From assembly GCF_900450765.1 (NCBI RefSeq), contig NZ_UGGU01000003.1, positions 248,001 to 312,000 of the forward strand: 64,000 bases of DNA. Direction: 5' to 3'. Below are positions 46,187-58,383 of this stretch, in pieces. Source of the stretch: Fusobacterium necrogenes (GTDB lineage: Bacteria; Fusobacteriota; Fusobacteriia; Fusobacteriales; Fusobacteriaceae). The position numbers were made by a program, and so were the translations under genes. The notes beneath the pieces were generated by a model that was given only the letters and a program-made list of their open reading frames with translations, was not told the origin of the DNA and searched no databases. Position 1 is the first letter of the stretch. Each line of letters opens with the position of its first letter.

Positions 46187-46444
46187 TAGGAGAACGAGTT
46201 ATCATAAATTGTAAAAAAATAAACAAAGAATTATAAATAACTTATTTAATAATAAATTTAACTTAAATAATTTGTTACTAATAGAGCAGAATCAAGAGTA
46301 GTATGCTCCTCTCAAATAGTCAGAGTTATATGAAAAAATTAAAAATATACAGTAATATTTTAATTATAATACAAAACTAAAAATATAATCAATTGTAAAG
46401 GAGGAGTGTGGTATAAGTTTTATATTTATATCATACAAGTTAAA
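46187..46444 (+). other. intergenic region before the restriction-modification gene
   Basis: No gene is visible. It is AT-rich, with TATAAT at 46365-46370 as a weak -10 candidate. AAGGAGGAG at 46398-46406 abuts a GTG, leaving the start of the next gene ambiguous. Confidence 0.4.
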
Positions 46445-49400
46445 ATGAGCTTGGGAAATATTTTAAAAAAAATGGAAAGAGATTCCTTTTCTTTAAGAGA
46501 TAAGGGGACAAGATTTGAAGAATTAATAAAAAATTGGTTTTTATCAGCTCCACTATATTGTGATGATATTAAAGAAATATGGTTATGGAATGAATTTCCA
46601 TACAGAAATCAGTTTGGTGGAAGTGATAGTGGAATAGATTTAGTTATTTTGACAGATAAGAATGAATATCAAGCTGTACAATGTAAATTTTATAGTTCTG
46701 ATAAACATATAGATAAAGCAGATGTAGATACATTTATCTCTACTTCAGCTAAACTTTTTGAAGTTGATGGGATAAAAGTAAAGTTTTCAAGTAGATTATT
46801 TGTTTCTACAACTAACCATTGGTCTAAAAAAGCTAGTGATTTAATAGAAAACCAAGAGATACCTGTTACAAGAATTTCATTAAATACTCTTGAAGATTCA
46901 GGGGTAGATTGGGATAAATTATATTTAGGAAATACTGGAGATAAAGCTAGAAAAGAGAAGAAAAAAATTAGAGAACATCAAGAATCAGCTTTAAAAAATG
47001 TTCATTCACATTTTAAAAGTGCTAATAGAGGAAAGTTAATCATGGCTTGTGGAACAGGAAAGACTTTTACTTCACTAAAGATAGCTGAAAATGAAACTAA
47101 TGGAAATGGATTAATTTTATTTTTAGTACCTTCAATAGCACTATTGGGGCAAACATTAAGAGAGTGGTCTAGTGATATAGAAGGGAAATTATATCCTATC
47201 TGTATATGTTCAGACTCAAAAATTACTAAAAAAACTAATAATGATAGTACAGGAATGAGTGTTGTTGATTTAGCTTTGCCAGCTACTACTGATGTAAATA
47301 AAATTGTAAGTCAATTAGAAACTTTAAAGGATAAAGAAGGTTTAAAAGTTGTTTTTTCAACTTATCAATCAATAGATGTAATTTCTAGGGCTCAACAGGA
47401 AATACTAGCTAAAGATTCTACTTTTGGAGTTTTTGATTTAATAGTTTGTGATGAAGCTCATAGAACAACAGGGGTAGCTCTTGCTAATGAAGAGGAAAGT
47501 AATTTTATAAAAGTTCATGATAATGAGTTTATAAAAGCTAAGAAAAGACTATATATGACAGCTACACCAAGACTTTATGATGATAACTCAAAATCTAAAG
47601 CTAAAGAAAATAATGCTTATCTATGTTCTATGGACGATAGAGGAATCTATGGAGATGAAATATACAGAATTGGATTTGGAGAAGCTGTTCAAAGAGAATT
47701 ATTAACAGATTATAAAGTTTTAATTTTAACATTAAATCATAGTCAAGTTCCTAGAGAGATACAAGCTTTAATTTCAAATGGAGATATTGAATTTAAGATA
47801 GATGACGCTTCAAAACTAATGGGGTGTATCAATGGATTATCTAAACAAATTCTTGATAAAGAAGGAATAGTAAAAGCTTCTGACCCTAACCCAATGAAGA
47901 GAGCAGTTGCTTTTTGTAGAGATATAAAGACATCTAAGAAGATTACAAGTGATTTAAATGAGTTCTCAAATACTTATATATCTTCATTAAAAGAAGAAGT
48001 ACAAGAAAAGATGGTTGAAGTTTCTTCTAAGCATATTGATGGAGGAATGAATGCTCTTGAAAGAGAAAATCTATTATCTTGGCTAAAACAGGATAGTAAA
48101 AATGAAAGAGAGTGTAAAATTCTTACCAATGCCAGATGTCTTAGTGAAGGAGTAGACGTTCCTACACTTGATGCAGTACTATTTTTATCAGCTAAAAACT
48201 CACAAGTAGATGTAGTTCAATCTGTTGGTAGAGTTATGAGAAGGGCAGAAGGGAAAAAATATGGATATATAATAATACCTGTTGTTGTTCCAGCAGATAA
48301 GAAACCTGAAGAAGCTCTAAATGATAATGAAACATATAAAGTAGTTTGGAGTGTATTAAATGCTCTAAGAGCTCATGATGAAAGATTTAATGCTGAAATT
48401 AATAAAATAGACTTAAATAAAAGAAAACCCCAAAATATCCTAATAGGAACAGTAGATAATACAGGAAAAGAAAGAAAATATAAAGAAAATAAATATGAAG
48501 TAAATGAAAGACAAATGAGTCTTAATATGGATATAGACAGATTACAAAATGCTATATATGCTAAGATGGTTGAGAAAGTTGGAGATAGAAAATACTTTGA
48601 ACGTTGGGCTAAAGATGTTGCTAGAATAGCACAAATTCAAATTGATAGAATAAGAGATTTGATTGCTAGAGATAAGCAATGTAAGAAAGCTTTTAATAAA
48701 TTTATAGAGGGATTACAGAAAAATATTAGTCCTGATATTGATGAAGAGCAAGGAATAGAGATGTTATCTCAACATATAATAACCAGACCTATATTTGAAG
48801 CTTTATTTGAGGGATATTCGTTTGTTAAGAATAATCCTATATCTCATTCTATGCAAGATATTTTAGATTTTTTATTACAAGGACAAATAGAAAAGGAAAC
48901 TGAAGAGTTAAATAAGTTTTATGAAGATATTAAATTTAAAATAGAAAAGATTGATAATGCTGAAGGAAAACAAAGAATTATAGTTGAGCTATATGATAAA
49001 TTCTTTAAAACTGCTTTTGATAAATTAGTAGATAAATTAGGAATAGTATATACTCCTGTTGAAGTAGTTGATTTTATTATCAATTCAGTAGAAGAGCTTT
49101 TAAATAAAGAGTTTGGAAGAAGTTTAAGCGATGAAAACGTTAATATCTTAGACCCATTTACAGGAACAGGAACTTTTATTTCAAGACTTTTACAAAGTAG
49201 AATAATCAAAAATAAAGATTTAGAAAGAAAGTATAAGTATGAAATCTATGCTAATGAGTTAGTTCTGTTGGCTTATTATATAGCAACTGTAAATATAGAG
49301 AATGTGTATCATGACTTAGAAAAGGAAAATTCTATTGAAGAGGTTGATTATAAAGAATTTGAAGGAATTTGTTTAACGGATACTTTTCAATTAAGTGAAG

Positions 49401-51247
49401 ATGATAATGAGATTCAAATGTTTGACTTAGCTTTTAAAGAAAATTCTGAAAGAGTAAATAGACAAAAGAAAGCACCACTACAAGTTATAATAGGGAATCC
49501 TCCATATACAATAGGACAAAGTTCTGCTAATGATAATGCCCAAAATAAAAAATATCCTAAATTAGATAATAAAATATTAGAAACATATTCAAAGGAATCT
49601 TCTGCAGGATTAAATAAAGCATTATATGATGCGTATATTAAAGCATTTAGATGGGCAACTGATAGATTAGATAAAACAGGTGGTATAATAGGTTTTGTAA
49701 CAAATGGAGCTTGGATTGATGGTGGTTCTACTTCAGGATTTAGAAAAGTTATTGAAAAAGAATTTACTTCAATTTATGTATTTAATTTAAGAGGAAATCA
49801 AAGAACTTCAGGAGAACTTTCAAGAAAAGAAGGTGGAAAAATATTTGGTAGTGGCTCAAGAACTCCAATCGCAATAACATTCTTAATAAAAAATCCTAAT
49901 ATTAAGAAAGAAAAAGCTTCTATTTACTATCATGATATAGGTGATTATTTAACAAGAGAAGAAAAACTAAAAATAATCTCTAATTTTAAATCAGTAAAAA
50001 ATATAGATTGGATAATATTAACTCCTAATCAAGAGGGGGATTGGATTAATCAAAGAAATGAAAAGTTTGATACTTTTATTCCTTTAATTGATAAAGATAA
50101 TAAAAATAATAAAAATACTTTCTTCAATATTTCATCTAACGGAGTAGTAACTAATAGGGATACATGGGTGTATTCTTATTCAAAAGGACAATTAGAAAAA
50201 CAGATGAGAGATACTATAAAATTCTATAATACTCAGATTGATAAGATAGAAAAAGTTAGAAAAACAGATGAAAATAGTGATATAGAAGATATTATAGATA
50301 CTAATCCTAATAATATTAGTTGGTCAGCTGATTTAAAGAAAAGAGCTAATAGATTAGAGAAAGATATTTTTGATATAAACGAAATAAAAGTTTCATTATA
50401 TAGACCTTTTTCAAAACAACATTTATATTACTCTAAAAAATGGATAGAAAGATTTTCTCAACAAAGTAAATTTAAAGGAGTTGCCATTGGAATGTTGGGA
50501 ATAGGAGGAAAACATAATTTTTCTTCTCTTATTTTAAAAGAAATTGGAGATATTCAAACTTTTCAAAATGCGAATTTTTATCCTTTATATTATAGTGAAG
50601 AAAGTTCAAATAGTACTTTATTTACTTCTAAAGAAAATAAGAAAGATGGAATAACAGATTTTATCTATAATTTAGCTAGAGAAAAATATGGAGTGCCAAG
50701 AATAACTAAAGAGGATATTTTCTATTATGTCTATGGATTCTTACATAATGAAGATTATAGAAAAGAATTTGAAGCAGATTTAAAGAAAACTATACCGAAA
50801 TTACCTTTAGTTGACGAATACCAAGATTTTAAAAAGTATTCTGATATAGGAAGAGAATTAGCAGAACTTCATCTAAACTATGAAACTCTTGAAAGACCTG
50901 AAGGAATTATAGTTGAAGGAGAAGAATTAGGAAATTATAGAGTTGAAAAAATGAGCTTCATAAAAAAAGGAGTAAAAGATACTATAAATTATAATAGTAG
51001 TATAACTATAAAAAATATTCCTTTAGAAGCTTATGATTACCAAGTTAATGGAAAGAGTGCTATTGAATGGATAATGGAAAGATATGCTGTAATAACAAAT
51101 AAAGATAGTGGTATTACAAATGACCCTAACCTTTGGTGTGATGAGCATAATGACCCTAAATATATTTTAAATCTTTTATTAAGTATAATAACTCTTTCAT
51201 TGAAAACTAATGAGCTAGTAAAAGAGTTACCTAAAGTTGAGTTTTAA
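46445..51247 (+). CDS. single-chain type ISP restriction-modification enzyme (nuclease-helicase-methyltransferase)
   Basis: A 1600-residue protein with all activities of a type ISP (LlaGI-like) restriction system. N-terminal Mrr-like nuclease: GSDSGIDLVI and QAVQCKFY (D-QxK, residues 60-88). SF2 helicase: Walker A MACGTGKTFTS near 200, DEAH in VCDEAHRTTG near 335, and motif VI QSVGRVMRRAEG. N6-adenine methyltransferase: DPFTGTGTF (motif I, near 902) and NPPYTIGQ (motif IV, near 1017). The last 450 residues would be the target-recognition domain. Such enzymes cut between two converging complexes. MSLGNILKKMERDSFSLRDK is the preferred start by family; GTG at 46406 next to AAGGAGG is an alternative. 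CBASS genes follow. Confidence 0.93.
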   Translation: MSLGNILKKMERDSFSLRDKGTRFEELIKNWFLSAPLYCDDIKEIWLWNEFPYRNQFGGSDSGIDLVILTDKNEYQAVQCKFYSSDKHIDKADVDTFISTSAKLFEVDGIKVKFSSRLFVSTTNHWSKKASDLIENQEIPVTRISLNTLEDSGVDWDKLYLGNTGDKARKEKKKIREHQESALKNVHSHFKSANRGKLIMACGTGKTFTSLKIAENETNGNGLILFLVPSIALLGQTLREWSSDIEGKLYPICICSDSKITKKTNNDSTGMSVVDLALPATTDVNKIVSQLETLKDKEGLKVVFSTYQSIDVISRAQQEILAKDSTFGVFDLIVCDEAHRTTGVALANEEESNFIKVHDNEFIKAKKRLYMTATPRLYDDNSKSKAKENNAYLCSMDDRGIYGDEIYRIGFGEAVQRELLTDYKVLILTLNHSQVPREIQALISNGDIEFKIDDASKLMGCINGLSKQILDKEGIVKASDPNPMKRAVAFCRDIKTSKKITSDLNEFSNTYISSLKEEVQEKMVEVSSKHIDGGMNALERENLLSWLKQDSKNERECKILTNARCLSEGVDVPTLDAVLFLSAKNSQVDVVQSVGRVMRRAEGKKYGYIIIPVVVPADKKPEEALNDNETYKVVWSVLNALRAHDERFNAEINKIDLNKRKPQNILIGTVDNTGKERKYKENKYEVNERQMSLNMDIDRLQNAIYAKMVEKVGDRKYFERWAKDVARIAQIQIDRIRDLIARDKQCKKAFNKFIEGLQKNISPDIDEEQGIEMLSQHIITRPIFEALFEGYSFVKNNPISHSMQDILDFLLQGQIEKETEELNKFYEDIKFKIEKIDNAEGKQRIIVELYDKFFKTAFDKLVDKLGIVYTPVEVVDFIINSVEELLNKEFGRSLSDENVNILDPFTGTGTFISRLLQSRIIKNKDLERKYKYEIYANELVLLAYYIATVNIENVYHDLEKENSIEEVDYKEFEGICLTDTFQLSEDDNEIQMFDLAFKENSERVNRQKKAPLQVIIGNPPYTIGQSSANDNAQNKKYPKLDNKILETYSKESSAGLNKALYDAYIKAFRWATDRLDKTGGIIGFVTNGAWIDGGSTSGFRKVIEKEFTSIYVFNLRGNQRTSGELSRKEGGKIFGSGSRTPIAITFLIKNPNIKKEKASIYYHDIGDYLTREEKLKIISNFKSVKNIDWIILTPNQEGDWINQRNEKFDTFIPLIDKDNKNNKNTFFNISSNGVVTNRDTWVYSYSKGQLEKQMRDTIKFYNTQIDKIEKVRKTDENSDIEDIIDTNPNNISWSADLKKRANRLEKDIFDINEIKVSLYRPFSKQHLYYSKKWIERFSQQSKFKGVAIGMLGIGGKHNFSSLILKEIGDIQTFQNANFYPLYYSEESSNSTLFTSKENKKDGITDFIYNLAREKYGVPRITKEDIFYYVYGFLHNEDYRKEFEADLKKTIPKLPLVDEYQDFKKYSDIGRELAELHLNYETLERPEGIIVEGEELGNYRVEKMSFIKKGVKDTINYNSSITIKNIPLEAYDYQVNGKSAIEWIMERYAVITNKDSGITNDPNLWCDEHNDPKYILNLLLSIITLSLKTNELVKELPKVEF

Positions 51248-51283: not shown

Positions 51284-51307
51284 ATGTTTCTTAAGGAGGT
51301 ATTAAAA

Positions 51308-52429
51308 ATGACAAATAGATTAAATAAAAATGAAACATTAGAAAGAATAGTAAAAAATATGGATATAACACCAACAATGTATAGAAATGCTGAAGATAAG
51401 TATAAAGCTTTAGCAAAATATTTAGGAGATAATGGTTTAGAATGTGATATTTATCCACAGGGGTCATTTTCATTAGGGACTGTTATAAAACCATTAAAAG
51501 AAGGAAAAAGAAAAGAATATGATTTAGATTTTATATGTGTTATTAACAATAAGGGAGATTTAGAAGCAAAAAAGTTTAGAGAAAAAATATGGGAAATACT
51601 TAATCAAAATGAAAATTATTCAAAAAGAATAAAAGAATATGACAAATGCTTTACATTGGAATATAGTGAAATCAATGGAACAGGATTTAATATAGATGTT
51701 CTTCCAGCAAAATCTTATATCAATAATTTTATTTTATTAATAAATAAGATTGATAAGGAAAATGTAGAGTGGTTTAAAGGGAATCCTAAGGGTTATAGTG
51801 AATGGTTTAAATCAGTTAATGATAGATATCCACAAGCACAGAAAATTAATGAGTTTAATAATAGTTTAATAGCAAAAGAAAGTGTAGAAGAGTTACCTGA
51901 TTATTTTGATAGAACTTCTCTACAAAGAGTTATTCAAATTTTAAAATACCATAGAGATTATTTTTACCATATGAGAAGAAAAGAAAATAAAAAAGTAATA
52001 TCAGCAATAATTACAACATTATGTACTAAAATTGCTGAAACTACTAATTTTACTCAGTTAAATACAATAGATTTATTAACTTATATTACTTCTGAGTTAT
52101 GTATTTATGCTCAATTACTTTCTAGAGATAATTTAGACCAAAGATATACAAATAGAACTGTTATTAAAAAAATAAATTGTAAATGGGAAATAATCAATCC
52201 TGTAAATTCAGAAGATAATTTAGCTGACAGTTGGAATGAAGATATTGAAAAACCAAAATTATTTTTTGAATGGATAGAAGAAATCAGAAAAGAGTTTGCA
52301 ATAACAAATGAAAAAGAATACTTGAGTAATTTTTCTAATATATTTGGTAAAGAAAATTTAAGTGATGAGATGAAATCAATTTTAGGAGCTTCTCAAATTG
52401 TTGAACCTATGAAACCATGGAGGAAATGA
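51308..52429 (+). CDS. CD-NTase of a CBASS system (cyclic oligonucleotide synthase)
   Basis: A 373-residue cGAS/DncV-like nucleotidyltransferase. The catalytic signature is complete: PQGSFSLGTVIKP (GS at residues 52-53), DLD with Asp72 and Asp74, and the third acid Asp130 in GFNIDVLPA. The C-terminal helical domain follows to residue 373. It makes a cyclic di- or oligonucleotide upon phage infection and activates the effector. An AAGGAGGT ribosome site precedes the ATG. The stop overlaps the E2 gene start by one base (TGATG). The family clade (A-H) cannot be assigned without alignment. Confidence 0.9.
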   Translation: MTNRLNKNETLERIVKNMDITPTMYRNAEDKYKALAKYLGDNGLECDIYPQGSFSLGTVIKPLKEGKRKEYDLDFICVINNKGDLEAKKFREKIWEILNQNENYSKRIKEYDKCFTLEYSEINGTGFNIDVLPAKSYINNFILLINKIDKENVEWFKGNPKGYSEWFKSVNDRYPQAQKINEFNNSLIAKESVEELPDYFDRTSLQRVIQILKYHRDYFYHMRRKENKKVISAIITTLCTKIAETTNFTQLNTIDLLTYITSELCIYAQLLSRDNLDQRYTNRTVIKKINCKWEIINPVNSEDNLADSWNEDIEKPKLFFEWIEEIRKEFAITNEKEYLSNFSNIFGKENLSDEMKSILGASQIVEPMKPWRK

Positions 52430-53115
52430 TGGAATATGTATATGAATTTTTAAAAAATTTTCCTTTTTTTAAAATAATAGAGAACACGTCTAAAGAATTT
52501 GTTATGCAAGGTTACTTAGAATTTAATTTAGAATATAAGGGGATAATTTTATATAAAAAACTTCTTTTAAAAATAGTAGTTAATAAAAATTATCCTATTT
52601 CATTACCTAAAGTTTATGATGTTGAAAACATTCTTTTAAAGACTTTTCATAAAAACGCTGATGGTAGTTTATGTTTAGGAACAGAATTAGAATTAAGAAA
52701 GGCTCTTTTTAATGATTACTCTTTAAAAAATTGGATAAATCAATGCTTAAATCCTTTTATTTATTCCTCATTATATTTTGAAAAATATAAAGAACCAATT
52801 TTTGGAGAAAGAGAGCATGGAACAAAAGGAGAATTAAATTCTATTAAAGATTATTTAGAACTTTCTACCTTTAGAGAAACATATTTATTTCTTAATATTA
52901 TTTTATTTAGAAAATATAAAAGAAAGATTTTTAAAAGAAATAATAAGATAAAAAAAATCCTATGTCCCTTGTGTGATAATAGATTTTTTAAATGTAAACA
53001 TTATTTGAAATTAAGAGAATTAGATTTGTATTTTAATAATAATTTATTAAAATATTTAAAAGATTTAATACAAAATTATGAAATGGAGGTAGAATATGAT
53101 AAATATAAAAAATAA
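52429..53115 (+). CDS. E2-like ubiquitin-conjugation-fold protein of short type II CBASS
   Basis: A 228-residue protein with an E2 (UBC-fold) domain. The motif NADGSLCLGTELELRKAL places Cys82 where E2 proteins carry the catalytic cysteine; LPKVYDVEN and NYPISLPK correspond to the E2 beta-strands before it. It lies between a CD-NTase and an S-4TM effector without E1 or JAB genes, the arrangement called short type II CBASS, where the E2 protein primes the synthase by attaching its C terminus to a target. The C-terminal CPLCDNRFFKCKHY may bind zinc. GGAGG favours the ATG at 52429 over 52417. Function is inferred from neighbours and motif. Confidence 0.85.
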   Translation: MEYVYEFLKNFPFFKIIENTSKEFVMQGYLEFNLEYKGIILYKKLLLKIVVNKNYPISLPKVYDVENILLKTFHKNADGSLCLGTELELRKALFNDYSLKNWINQCLNPFIYSSLYFEKYKEPIFGEREHGTKGELNSIKDYLELSTFRETYLFLNIILFRKYKRKIFKRNNKIKKILCPLCDNRFFKCKHYLKLRELDLYFNNNLLKYLKDLIQNYEMEVEYDKYKK

Positions 53116-53971
53116 ACAAAATTCTCAAGAAATTTTAGATTTATTATTTTTACAAAGAATTTATTGTGAAAAAATAGAAAACATGACTATTAAAATATAT
53201 TTATTTACAGTTTTTATAGCTATTATAGGAATTTTTGCTCAAAATTATTATTATTTAATAGTTTTAAATTTAATTTTAATTATTTATACAAATTATTTAA
53301 TTAATAAAAGAAAAGAAAAAATTACAATAATGGCAACAATAAAAGAAATTATTGACAGGACTTTATTTAATTTAAAAAATCTAAGATTAGAATGTTCTAG
53401 AGAAAAAATAGAAGAATATTTAATAATTGAAAAAGAAAAAAAAGCTAAAAGATATAACAAAGAAATTAGTAATAGTGGGACAGATAAGTATAGAGGAGTA
53501 AGAGATTGGTATTCATATGAAGAAGAATTAAATGATGAGCAAATTATTTTAAGTTGCCAAAAACAAAATTGTTATTTTACAGAAAGTCTATTAGGTTCTT
53601 TTAGTAAGTCAATATTAATTCTAGTATTTTTAATTTTTATAGTTCTACTGTGTTATGGTAGACAAGTAACAATAGAAAAACTAATTATTTACTATCTATA
53701 TCCTTTTGCTACATTTTTAACATTAATTATGAATGATTTTCAAAATTATAAAAGTTTTAAAGAAATTCTAAAGGAATTAAAAATAGAATTCGATAATATA
53801 AAAAGTAAGAAAAAGATTCAAGAAAAAGACTTAGAAAAAATTCAAAACTTAATATATTTATATAGAAAAACTGAATATCGTCCACCTCTAGAAATTATAC
53901 ATTGGAAATTTTCTAAAACATTACATAAGAAGTGGGAAACAATAAAAAAACACTTTATAATCACCTTTTGA
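53096..53971 (+). CDS. S-4TM family putative pore-forming CBASS effector
   Basis: A 291-residue membrane protein with two pairs of helices, residues about 30-67 (YLFTVFIAIIGIF; LIVLNLILIIYTNYL) and about 168-215 (SILILVFLIFIVLLC; YLYPFATFLTLIM), with a soluble loop between. Its N terminus QNSQEILDLLFLQRIYCEKI is typical of the S-4TM family (a CBASS effector class). On binding the cyclic nucleotide it would permeabilise the inner membrane and kill the infected cell. It overlaps the E2 gene by 20 bp, with GGAGGT as ribosome site, so all three genes are coupled. The activating nucleotide is unknown. Confidence 0.85.
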   Translation: MINIKNKQNSQEILDLLFLQRIYCEKIENMTIKIYLFTVFIAIIGIFAQNYYYLIVLNLILIIYTNYLINKRKEKITIMATIKEIIDRTLFNLKNLRLECSREKIEEYLIIEKEKKAKRYNKEISNSGTDKYRGVRDWYSYEEELNDEQIILSCQKQNCYFTESLLGSFSKSILILVFLIFIVLLCYGRQVTIEKLIIYYLYPFATFLTLIMNDFQNYKSFKEILKELKIEFDNIKSKKKIQEKDLEKIQNLIYLYRKTEYRPPLEIIHWKFSKTLHKKWETIKKHFIITF

Positions 53972-54236: not shown

Positions 54237-55292
54237 ATGAAGGAGAAAAAAGTGAACTACTATATATTTAGAATTGATTATTCAAAAAGAGATTATTTTA
54301 AGAAAAATCTAGAAAAAGGTGTTTTAAGACAAGGTTGGGGAGTAGAAAACTTATCCTTGCTTGATGAAAATGGAGAAGTTAGAAACCAAGAGGAATGGGT
54401 TAATGCTTGTCCAGAAAGTTGGAGAAATACTGATGAAGCTAGAAGATATCTTAGAAATAAAAATAGTAACCTAAGAAAAATGTTAGAGATGAAAGAGGGA
54501 GATATAATTCTTATTCCTAAATTCCCAGAGTGGAATATGTTTTCTTTATACAGAGTTACAGGAAAATACTATTTTAACTTAGAAGAAACAGCAGTAGATT
54601 ATGGACATTGTATTCCTGTAAAAATTGCTACTACATATCCATATGAAATAGACAAATGCTTTACTTACAATGGAAATGATGCCACTAAAATAATTCATAG
54701 TAAGTTAAGAGGGTATCAAACCTCTATAAATAGTGTTTATAACAAAGAGATAATTAAAGCTATTGAAAGTCTATTACAGATAAAAAGTATAAAAGAAGTA
54801 TCTCTAATAACAGAGATTTTAAGAAATATCTTTGAAAAAAATATAAAGAATATGGAAAATCTGAATAAAGAAATTTTTTCTGTTAGACCTAATGATGTAG
54901 AAGAAATTGTAGAAGATATTTTTAAAAAACAAGGGTATTTAGTTGAAAGTAAAAATTCCTATGATAAAAAAGGTGGAGATTCTGATAGAACTTTTATAAA
55001 ACCTCTTCCAATATTGAGTGAAGTAAATGATGAGATAGGTAGTTGTAGAGTCTATGTACAGATTAAGAAAAAAGATGGCGAATATGATGAAGATGAAGGA
55101 ATTAAGCAACTTGAGAAGATAGTTGCCACTAAAGAAAATATTGAAGGGAAAGATAATAAATTTAATAATTTTTATAAGGTTTTAGTATGTACAGGGGAGT
55201 TTAGCTCTAGAATAAAAGAGTTAGCTCAAGAAAAAAATATTATTCTAATAGATGGAATCCAACTTATAAGAATGTGCCTTAAAAATATTTAA
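54237..55292 (+). CDS. Mrr-type restriction endonuclease with N-terminal EVE/PUA-like domain
   Basis: A 351-residue protein. Residues 1-120 (YYIFRIDYSKRDYFKKNLEK, then GVLRQGWG and KEGDIILIPKFPEWNMFSLY) resemble EVE/PUA-like domains that read modified bases. The C-terminal 130 residues are Mrr-like: VEEIVEDIFKKQGYLVESK, then GGDSDRTF, the active-site strand VYVQIKKKDGE (Q-x-K), and VLVCTGEF followed by NIILIDGIQLIRM. This domain order is that of a modification-dependent type IV endonuclease. It has no methyltransferase partner except the unrelated type ISP enzyme. The ribosome site AAAGGAGAG and the ATG are clear. Confidence 0.78.
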   Translation: MKEKKVNYYIFRIDYSKRDYFKKNLEKGVLRQGWGVENLSLLDENGEVRNQEEWVNACPESWRNTDEARRYLRNKNSNLRKMLEMKEGDIILIPKFPEWNMFSLYRVTGKYYFNLEETAVDYGHCIPVKIATTYPYEIDKCFTYNGNDATKIIHSKLRGYQTSINSVYNKEIIKAIESLLQIKSIKEVSLITEILRNIFEKNIKNMENLNKEIFSVRPNDVEEIVEDIFKKQGYLVESKNSYDKKGGDSDRTFIKPLPILSEVNDEIGSCRVYVQIKKKDGEYDEDEGIKQLEKIVATKENIEGKDNKFNNFYKVLVCTGEFSSRIKELAQEKNIILIDGIQLIRMCLKNI

Positions 55293-55557: not shown

Positions 55558-55611
55558 ATTGAAGTTTACTCAATTATAATATACTATTTTATGGACTTTG
55601 TCAATATTTTT

Positions 55612-56727
55612 TTACATATTTATATTAGCTAGTCCTATATAAGAATTGTTTAGAAAAAGATATATTATTTTGGGATTGATTGGAGAAAACTTTATAAAAA
55701 TATCTTGTCCATTTAATCCTTTTAAAGCAGATGAGATATATTGAAAATTCTTTACTCTTACTTTTGAATCAGTTATTTTTCTTGTTGTATTTTGTAATAA
55801 AATATCTAATTGACGTATATACTTAATGTCATTTATAGTATTATAATTAATAGAAAAAGCGTACTCTTTCTTTTGAATGTATATATAATTACTTAAAAAT
55901 TCCGTTAATTCTAAAAGAGTCAATTCATAGTTTTTCTTTTTATAGAAATCTTCAATATCTTCTTTTATAAACATTATAAATTTATTAACTTCACTATTTT
56001 CTGTATAGTGTTCACTAATTTTTACTCCTAATTCATTATAAATTTCTTTTAAGACTTTTTTATTACTTATATTTTTAGAAGCAACTAAAATTTCCTTAGG
56101 TAGTATAAATTTTTCATTTTTTAGGGATGCTTTTAATATCCCTTCACGAATAAACCCTAATAGGGAATAAAAATTTGAAAAATAGTAATCAATTGCAAAG
56201 TTAATTGGCTCTAATGAAGCTGAATCTAGCATGATAAGTAGTCTAGGGACCACTTTTTTATTTGAAAAAAAATCATCAACTAAAACATATAAAGGAACAT
56301 CAAAAACTAAGTAACATTGATTTTCTTTTTTGATCTTTTCCATATATCTAACTGTGGTTTTATTAAAAAATTCATCTATATTGTTGACTATTCTATAGAA
56401 TGTAGCATAACTTATTGAAAAACTCTCAGGTAATTTTGTTTTGCACTTTTCGTAAAGTTTTGCTATACTAGTTTCTTTTGAATCTTTACAAATATTTTTT
56501 ATAAGTTCTAAATTTTCCTCATCAAGGTTTCTAAATGAATTTTTATCTTCTCTAGATTTTTTTTCTAATCCTAGAATTCCACTTTTTTTATAGGCATTGA
56601 CCCATCTTTTAAGTGTGGCGTAAGAGATGTTTTTTTCTTCTTCTATCTCTTTTAATTTTTTTTTCTTTTTCAAAAAAGGCTCAATTATTTTGAAACGTAT
56701 TAACTCTAAATTTTCTTTTTCTTTCAA
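55612..56727 (-). CDS. Mu/IS-type transposase-derived protein without intact DDE site
   Basis: A 371-residue protein with the layout of Mu-like or IS481-type transposases: helix-turn-helix KLKEIEEEKNISYATLKRWV with YKKSGILGLEKKSRED, a second HTH (SISYATFYRIV), and an integrase-like core (LVFDVPLYVLVDDF, later LIMLDSAS). The usual second acidic block (D-x-G) is replaced by ILVASKNIS; a possible Glu remains in FIKEDIEDFY. The catalytic triad therefore looks incomplete. No flanking inverted repeats or target duplications are visible. It lies divergent to a PTS gene. It could be a decayed element or a DNA-binding protein exapted for regulation. Confidence 0.7.
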   Translation of the reverse strand: MKEKENLELIRFKIIEPFLKKKKKLKEIEEEKNISYATLKRWVNAYKKSGILGLEKKSREDKNSFRNLDEENLELIKNICKDSKETSIAKLYEKCKTKLPESFSISYATFYRIVNNIDEFFNKTTVRYMEKIKKENQCYLVFDVPLYVLVDDFFSNKKVVPRLLIMLDSASLEPINFAIDYYFSNFYSLLGFIREGILKASLKNEKFILPKEILVASKNISNKKVLKEIYNELGVKISEHYTENSEVNKFIMFIKEDIEDFYKKKNYELTLLELTEFLSNYIYIQKKEYAFSINYNTINDIKYIRQLDILLQNTTRKITDSKVRVKNFQYISSALKGLNGQDIFIKFSPINPKIIYLFLNNSYIGLANINM

Positions 56728-56832
56728 CTTGAACCCCCCTTAATTCCTGTATTTATTATAGTAAAATGATACAATATTTTTAAAAAAAAATCAATATAAA
56801 ATAAAAAAAGCTCAAAAAAATTGAAAAAAATA

Positions 56833-56861
56833 TTGACTTTTTTAAGGAATTAAGATATATT
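56833..56861 (+). promoter_or_regulatory. sigma-70 promoter for the PTS gene
   Basis: TTGACT (56833-56838), a 17-bp spacer and TATATT (56856-56861), 37 bp before the ATG. Confidence 0.75.
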
Positions 56862-56898: not shown

Positions 56899-58383
56899 AT
56901 GAAAATATTTGCAGAGGTTCAAAAAATTGGAAAAGCTCTGATGACACCAGTTGCAATTCTTCCAGCAGCAGGGTTATTCTTAGCATTTGGAAACAAGTTA
57001 CAATTTACACTTATGGAACAAGCTGGGCAGATAATTTTTAGCAATTTACCTTTATTATTTGCGATAGGAACAGCTATTGGACTTGTAGGTGGAGATGGAA
57101 TCGCAGCTTTAGCAGCAGTAGTTGCCATACTAATAATGAATACTACTATGGGAATAATGTCAAATGCAGCTGTAGGAGTAGCTAGTGGAGATTTATCTTA
57201 TGCTACTGTATTAGGAATACCTACTCTTCAAACTGGGGTATTTGGAGGGTTAATAGCCGGGATAATAGCAGCTATTTGTTATAAAAAATTCTATAAAACT
57301 GAATTACCAGCTTTTTTAGGATTCTTTGCAGGGAAAAGATTAGTTCCAATAATGACAGCTGTTTTAGCGTTTATAGTAGGATTGGCTATGCCAACTATTT
57401 GGCAACCGGTACAAATAGGGTTAGCAAAATTATCATTTTTAGCTAATGAGGTCAATACTAATATTTCAACATTTATATTTGGAGTTATAGAAAGAGCATT
57501 GATTCCTTTTGGTTTACACCATATATTTTATGCACCTTTCTGGTATCAATTTGGGGAATATACAAATAGTCTTGGACAAGTTGTTCAAGGGGACCAAACT
57601 ATTTGGTTTGCAATGTTAAGAGATGGAGTTCAATCATTTAGTTCAGCAACATATGAAGGAGCAGGGAAATTTTTAACAGGAAAATTTGTATTTATGATGT
57701 TTGGTTTGCCAGCAGCAGCTTTAGCTATGTATCAAGAAGCTAGACCAGAAAATAAAAAGTTAGTTGGAGGTATTTTATTCTCAGCTGCCTTAACAAGTTT
57801 TTTAACTGGAATTACTGAACCATTAGAGTTTTCTTTCCTATTTGTTGCGCCAGTATTGTATGGAATACATTGTCTATTTGCAGGACTTTCATTCATGTTA
57901 ATGAACTTATTACAAGTTAGAATAGGGATGACTTTTTCTGGAGGATTAATAGATTATATTGTATTTGGTGTTCTACCTGGTACAAGTGGATTCCAAACAA
58001 GATGGTATATGGTAATAGTAGTAGGAATTTGTTTCTCAATTATCTACTATTTTGGATTTAGATTTGCAATTAGAAAGTTTAATTTAAAAACTCCTGGAAG
58101 AGATGAGGGAAGTTCTGAAGATGATGCTCAAATTGCAGATGGAGATGCATTGGCAGTAGGAGTATTAGAAGCTTTAGGTGGAAAAGAAAATTTAATTTCT
58201 CTAGATTCTTGTATAACAAGATTAAGAGTAGAGGTAAAGGATGCTAGTTTAGTAAAAGATTCTGACCTTAAAAAATTAGGAGCTTCTGGGGTATTAAAAG
58301 TTGGAGCTCATGGTGTACAAGCTATATTTGGTTCAAAGGCACAATTTATATGTAATGATTTGAAAAAGATGACTGGGGTTTAA
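56899..58383 (+). CDS. PTS glucose-family transporter subunit EIICB
   Basis: A 494-residue sugar permease with fused EIIC and EIIB. EIIC occupies residues 1-390: [16 protein letters not shown] near the start, [17 protein letters not shown], and the sugar-binding [23 protein letters not shown] covers residues 410-494, with phospho-accepting Cys in [14 protein letters not shown]. It resembles PtsG/MalX/NagE-type proteins; no EIIA is fused, so a separate one must serve it. Sugar specificity is not clear: glucose, maltose or N-acetylglucosamine. A GGAGGCG ribosome site and a terminator define it as monocistronic. Confidence 0.92.

Follow-up and report, generated by a model that had tools for sequence, protein, structure and literature searches.

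Genes and predicted sites at the locus

The window, by which we mean the whole 64,000-nucleotide stretch of Fusobacterium necrogenes DNA analysed here, contains at positions 55612-56727 on the minus strand an uninterrupted open reading frame of 371 codons with a TTG start, and AAGGGGGG upstream of this start is a good ribosome site. Based on Pfam domains, an alignment of the catalytic triad and omega values, we assigned the frame to a putative transposase-derived regulator of 371 amino acids. The first HTH domain (residues 11-59; 56551-56697, minus strand) was defined by Pfam HTH_28, which passes its cut-off, and by invariant columns, and it is the most conserved portion of the family (SYATLKRWV). 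The second helical or HTH domain (residues about 70-118; 56374-56520, minus strand) was assigned from AF2 helices and Pfam HTH_32, which covers residues 38-113 with a score just below its cut-off. These are followed by a catalytically dead RNase H-like core (residues about 130-288; 55864-56337, minus strand), recognized by fold match and triad alignment, and by a Mu-transposase C-terminal barrel (residues 308-364; 55636-55806, minus strand; PF09299, E 3.8e-8, over the cut-off). The protein contains the domain set of a Tn552/TnsB/MuA-type transposase, namely the tandem HTH, the RNase H-like core and the Mu-C barrel. A first-pass annotation of this DNA had proposed two HTH domains and an integrase-like fold, and both were recovered here, the latter by fold comparison.

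The AF2 model of the regulator showed a pLDDT of 81.5 and a pTM of 0.65. Its top fold match was TnsB of the type V-K CAST (8aa5; Foldseek E 2.2e-16; VIA Z 16.2 over 212 residues at 3.6 Å), and a TnsB profile matched the protein with E 2.7e-18. The comparison with MuA that the first-pass annotation had recommended gave a match to the MuA core as well (1bco; Z 15.0, 220 residues, 3.5 Å). In these structure matches the N-terminal HTH region of the regulator was covered less well. No Pfam match to a ROK or PRD domain, the domains of the PTS regulators Mlc and GlcT respectively, was found in the regulator up to E 1. The columns of the family alignment contain no invariant His, which makes it unlikely that the PTS controls the protein by phosphorylating a conserved His.

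Divergent from the regulator gene, and 171 bp from it, lies a glucose-type PTS EIICB gene (56899-58383, plus strand), identified by Pfam and by TIGR02002 with 666.5 bits against a cut-off of 591.8, which is the inferred target. The EIICB promoter (56833-56861, plus strand), assigned from promoter comparison and sequence, consists of a -35 box TTGACT at 56833-56838 and a -10 box TATATT at 56856-56861 with a spacing of 17 bp. A predicted operator, O1 (56804-56832, plus strand; GCTCA at 56810), for which the support is motif conservation and not binding data, abuts the -35 box. An operator-like copy in the same orientation, O2 (56672-56695, plus strand; G000:C3:304672-304695), lies about 131 bp from O1 within codons 11-19 of the regulator gene and was identified by model scan and codon conservation. 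A probable regulator promoter (56766-56794, minus strand; -35 TTGATT at 56789-56794, 17 bp, -10 TATCAT at 56766-56771), inferred from sequence, falls between O1 and O2.

Loss of the catalytic triad and selection on the protein

We aligned the window protein with P0001, an intact relative from an Obscuribacterales assembly that has D, D and E at the catalytic positions. The corresponding residues of the window protein are F, A and N. Among 40 homologues the first Asp is present in 0/40, the second Asp in 16/40 and the Glu in 7/40, and not one homologue has all three. The first-pass annotation had noticed that the second acidic block reads ILVASKNIS; this segment does sit at the second catalytic Asp, but the loss is larger than was claimed there, since all three residues are gone. 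Omega values between close relatives were 0.031-0.115 in 14 pairs, a fifteenth pair being dropped for lack of any synonymous change, and in the three comparisons involving the window gene the constraint was distributed across all four domains. The low omega and the constraint over all domains indicate that the dead core is being maintained. As judged by sequence comparison, the regulator descends from a DDE transposase, has lost the triad and is under purifying selection.

Tests of mobility

The regulator gene is present as a single copy in its own 2.0 Mb genome. When two ATPases and one resolvase were used as blastp queries against the 529 flanking ORFs at 40 loci, no match to a partner ATPase or resolvase was found, and the TnpA of the Tn552-type relatives matched only the regulator family among these ORFs. 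No terminal inverted repeats of the 55612-56727 gene were identified. The sole inverted pair closely bracketing the gene, I8 (55600-55621 and 56816-56837), was rejected, since it consists at each end of a -35 region and an A-tract, belonging to the tRNA-Leu and EIICB promoters. The earlier description of the gene as uninterrupted and without inverted repeats therefore holds, and the finding that would have refuted domestication, namely multi-copy elements with repeats and an intact DDE triad, was not encountered: there is one copy in the genome, no triad is intact among the 40 homologues, and transposition partners are missing from the 529 ORFs.

Distribution of the family and its PTS neighbours

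Members of the family occur in 45 of the 98 Fusobacteriota genomes searched. Among the 80 genomes of the relatives search, 36 carry the gene, including all 12 of the genus with the window's own counted, and the copy in Fusobacterium mortiferum is 83% identical to the window gene. The phylum search returned 61 matches, which correspond to 52 gene copies (one of them broken and spread over two matches), two contig-edge pieces (G085:C162 and G037:C50) and, inside other proteins, six short stretches of 156-213 bp (G004 and G046). In G046 the HTH part is matched at five places, over 156 bp and with the same score each time, in frames of 98 codons; these look like a repeated insertion element that is separate from the regulator gene. 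Two or three regulator copies are present in G017, G026, G029, G037 and G082. At the duplicate in G082 (contig C4) both genes have decayed as a pair, the EIICB gene being interrupted by two stops and the regulator gene being broken. At one locus (L050, genome G035) the regulator lacks its first ~40 in-frame codons, although the HTH still seems to be encoded upstream in a different frame, through a frameshift or an assembly error. A contig scan for the family yielded 17 loci, of which 16 were from Fusobacteriota and one (L086) encodes an intact DDE protein from an Obscuribacterales assembly; the scan is pattern-based, and other phyla are thus not excluded. No match to the regulator was found in phage records.

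It had been predicted that orthologues would always be divergent from EIICB. This was so for 49 of the 52 copies, which face a glucose-type EIICB gene, and the other three (L067, L068 and L069) face EI-EIIA or HPr-EI genes. In the 49 copies, regulator and EIICB are separated by 166 to 2,849 bp, and where the gap is large it is occupied by an EIIA gene or by genes for HPr, EI and EIIA. The Haliovirga abyssi copy, whose product is named helix-turn-helix domain-containing protein by NCBI, faces an annotated HPr-ptsP-EIIA-nagE operon. The remaining neighbours are scrambled, with 27 families in 38 loci to the left of the regulator and 27 in 39 to the right of the PTS block. A comparison of the regulator and EIICB trees (r 0.61, reached by 0 of 2000 permutations) is confounded by species descent and was given no weight.

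Predicted operator sequences at the PTS promoters and within the putative regulator gene

The operator core follows the pattern [A/G]GCTCA-N8-GAAA, which is roughly 20 bp long and asymmetric and stops a few bp short of the EIICB -35 box, and the consensus ahead of the PTS promoter is AAAAAAGGCTCATTTTTTTTGAAAAAAAT-TTGAC. The motif GCTCA-N14-22-TTGA was present in 37 of 40 intergenic regions; in 300 dinucleotide shuffles of these regions it occurred on average in 0.13 and at most in 2 of the 40. Some of the 40 loci are nearly identical to one another, for example L032/L033 and L036/L038. The start of GCTCA lies 21-24 bp upstream of the -35 hexamer, a narrow distance that is partly but not wholly imposed by the search range of 19-27, and the -35/-10 spacing is 17 bp in 32 of 37 loci. 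The strict motif fails in L059, which has two GGCTCA at other spacings, in L061, which has GGTTCA, and in L068, where there is none. An earlier pattern with a wrong spacing had missed the window's own site and gave 4 weak matches against 1 in a reversed control; it was discarded.

We then compared 18 further EIICB loci, and the motif was present in 6 of 7 with the regulator gene and in 0 of 11 without it; in the seventh locus with the gene (L132) the site is only degenerate. Genome G032 provides a natural pair, in which the EIICB gene accompanied by the regulator has the site (L051), whereas its other EIICB gene (L120, 78% identical to that of the window) has neither gene nor site. The presence of the operator with the gene and its absence without the gene give independent support to the regulator reading. 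In the own-genome scan with a sequence model, O1 ranked first (E 1.5e-7) and O2 next (E 3.4e-4). Most of the matches after these either fit no more than the A/T-rich half at the promoter or have lower scores, and we claim no regulon beyond EIICB. The organism's own ptsH promoter (L141), which has no such gene beside it, contains no GCTCA core, so that the predicted target in this species is EIICB alone. A model scan across the phylum gave many weak matches, with E between 1e-5 and 1e-3; most of them align to model positions about 13-55, they also occur in genomes without the gene, and none was used.

The match at O2 is seen again elsewhere in the genus and in genomes of another genus, g8. Codons 11-18 show no variation among nine species of the genus even at synonymous places, compared with only 24 of 121 such columns being invariant over the gene as a whole, and this longest codon-invariant run was equalled in 3 of 20,000 permutations. 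The codon for Glu16 is GAG in 26 of 31, against 24.8% across the family. These comparisons show a DNA-level constraint on the putative internal site. With leave-one-out matrices, no other position in the reading frame scored higher than O2 in 20 of 40 loci, and in other loci O2 has been lost, indicating that the internal site is not universal.

Competing explanations

The Pfam matches to Mu-transpos_C and an IS481-like HTH would also suit a Tn552-like transposon gene, live or in decay, that lies beside the PTS gene by chance. A further point in favour of this is that, outside Fusobacteriota, the relatives nearest to the protein are transposases of the Tn552 type, accompanied by an AAA ATPase and in one case also by a resolvase. 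However, a gene of this kind is difficult to reconcile with full-length intact frames at omega 0.03-0.12, with one copy in its own genome and no ATPase or resolvase homologue in the flanking ORFs, or with a neighbour that is unchanged in 49 of 52 copies, and we regard it as scarcely credible. We give next to no weight either to the idea that the protein has kept a DNA-architectural or recombination role without regulating transcription; the retained integrase-like fold and the selection in all domains would be in line with it, but the absence of any complete triad among the 40 homologues and the position of the operator beside a PTS promoter are not.

The GGCTCA element might instead be part of the EIICB promoter itself, as an UP element or the site of another regulator, with the transposase-like gene a mere passenger. 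The element is A/T-rich and abuts a near-consensus promoter at a fixed distance, and since the operator lies in A/T tracts by the promoter, its conservation could partly reflect an UP element. Against this, it is missing from each of the 11 EIICB loci that lack the gene (six of these encode an EIICB 68-80% identical to the window's), it is found before ptsH or EI where the gene adjoins these (L058, L067 and L069), and a copy is conserved within the gene itself. We therefore judge the passenger explanation improbable.

Proposed mode of regulation

We consider it highly probable that the protein is a domesticated, catalytically dead transposase of the Tn552/TnsB/MuA type that binds DNA and regulates the glucose PTS locally. 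The first-pass annotation had offered a domesticated regulator of the PTS gene as a testable idea, and it is supported here by linkage, fold, absent mobility and an operator that tracks the gene, while binding and regulation remain inferences without binding or expression data. In the proposed mechanism, the tandem HTH, which in a transposase reads the transposon ends, would read O1 and O2. Occupancy of O1 would set EIICB transcription, and occupancy of O2 might block or loop the regulator's own transcription, which would amount to negative autoregulation. Given the second operator copy in its first codons, the regulator gene is probably also under the control of its own product, through a road-block or through bridging of the two sites.

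The direction of control is less certain. The fixed distance of 21-24 bp to the -35 box leans to activation and the near-consensus EIICB promoter leans to repression; we incline, by a little, to the view that the regulator activates EIICB. Within the same domesticated-regulator explanation, the protein could act like Mlc, the ROK repressor of E. coli ptsG and ptsHI-crr, and repress both EIICB and its own gene, with relief by EIICB transport activity or glucose-6-phosphate. The target set is that of Mlc, the 17-bp promoter spacing in 32 of 37 loci calls for no activator, and the divergent layout with a site within the own gene would fit a repressor, whereas a site at a fixed position upstream of the -35 box is more typical of activators and the protein has no ROK or PRD domain. 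Such repression is quite possible, if somewhat short of probable. Candidate signals for the regulator are EIICB itself, as for Mlc, or a sugar phosphate. Mlc and the putative regulator share a target class (glucose EIICB and general PTS genes), but no sequence or domain relation between them was found.

Going further, bacterial transcription factors might have arisen from DDE transposases in a form in which the HTH pair reads the operator, the dead core and barrel sense and oligomerise, and the bridging of O1 and O2 is retained, giving a looped glucose-PTS switch. We hold this extension to be speculative and rather doubtful.

Comparison with known systems

The closest transposase relatives, which are of the Tn552 type (Mu transposase C-terminal family), include the TnpA proteins of Paenibacillus crassostreae pPC01 (L138) and Mammaliicoccus lentus pH29-26 (L152). 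They share the order of HTH, RNase H-like and Mu-C domains over most of their length, and these plasmid matches are about 26-30% identical to the longer clade of the family. The two TnpA proteins compared keep D-D-E and have AAA ATPase neighbours, with a resolvase also in L152, whereas the Fusobacteriota family has neither the triad nor such neighbours and adjoins PTS genes. No convincing transposon ends were found in L138 for comparison with the operator. The HTH domains of TnsB and MuA read end repeats of about 20 bp. TnsB (type V-K CAST and Tn7) and MuA are the best fold matches, but the regulator is shorter, without the catalytic triad and without partner genes.

Among bacterial regulators, TldR originates from TnpB. 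It is described as a bacterial mobile-element protein turned regulator (PMC13418256). TldR is RNA-guided, while the window protein is of DDE transposase type and presumably reads DNA by its HTH. FHY3/FAR1 and other eukaryotic transposase-derived transcription factors represent the same kind of reuse, but they are eukaryotic and derive from other transposase superfamilies. The accessible portion of a review on the recruitment of prokaryotic mobile elements describes transcription factors from the Xre and RHH families and contains no occurrence of 'DDE' (PMC8987985).

No published description of the regulator family was found in our literature search, the scope of which left out most of the subscription literature. 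It is apparently an undescribed case of a transposase turned transcription factor, with a predicted operator. Plants and animals offer well-documented examples of transcription factors that derive from transposases, and the bacterial cases met in our literature search were phage repressors, antitoxins and TldR. A DDE transposase fixed in a bacterial family as regulator of the main system for sugar uptake would extend such reuse to a very common transposase fold. With a readable operator, controls that have gene and site or lack both, and intact relatives, the loss of catalysis and the gain of regulation become directly testable. The regulator may also account for glucose control in the genera Fusobacterium and Cetobacterium.

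Other genes near the locus and at other EIICB genes

In the window, a short CBASS-like operon at 51284-53971 encodes an oligonucleotide cyclase, an E2-like protein and a 4TM effector, as identified by PADLOC. A type IIG restriction enzyme-methyltransferase gene (46406-51247; 2160 bits) adjoins the CBASS genes, and a weak match to a type IV restriction enzyme (54237-55292) comes after them, so that these genes together form a small defence island by tRNA-Leu. In three genomes of genus g21 (family f4), a protein with a Rep3_C domain (plasmid replication initiator, WH2) is divergent from EIICB (L119:6834-8003, L121:3850-5076 and L122:6892-8100). More Rep-like copies are present elsewhere in these genomes, and the protein is perhaps a second mobile-element protein reused beside EIICB.
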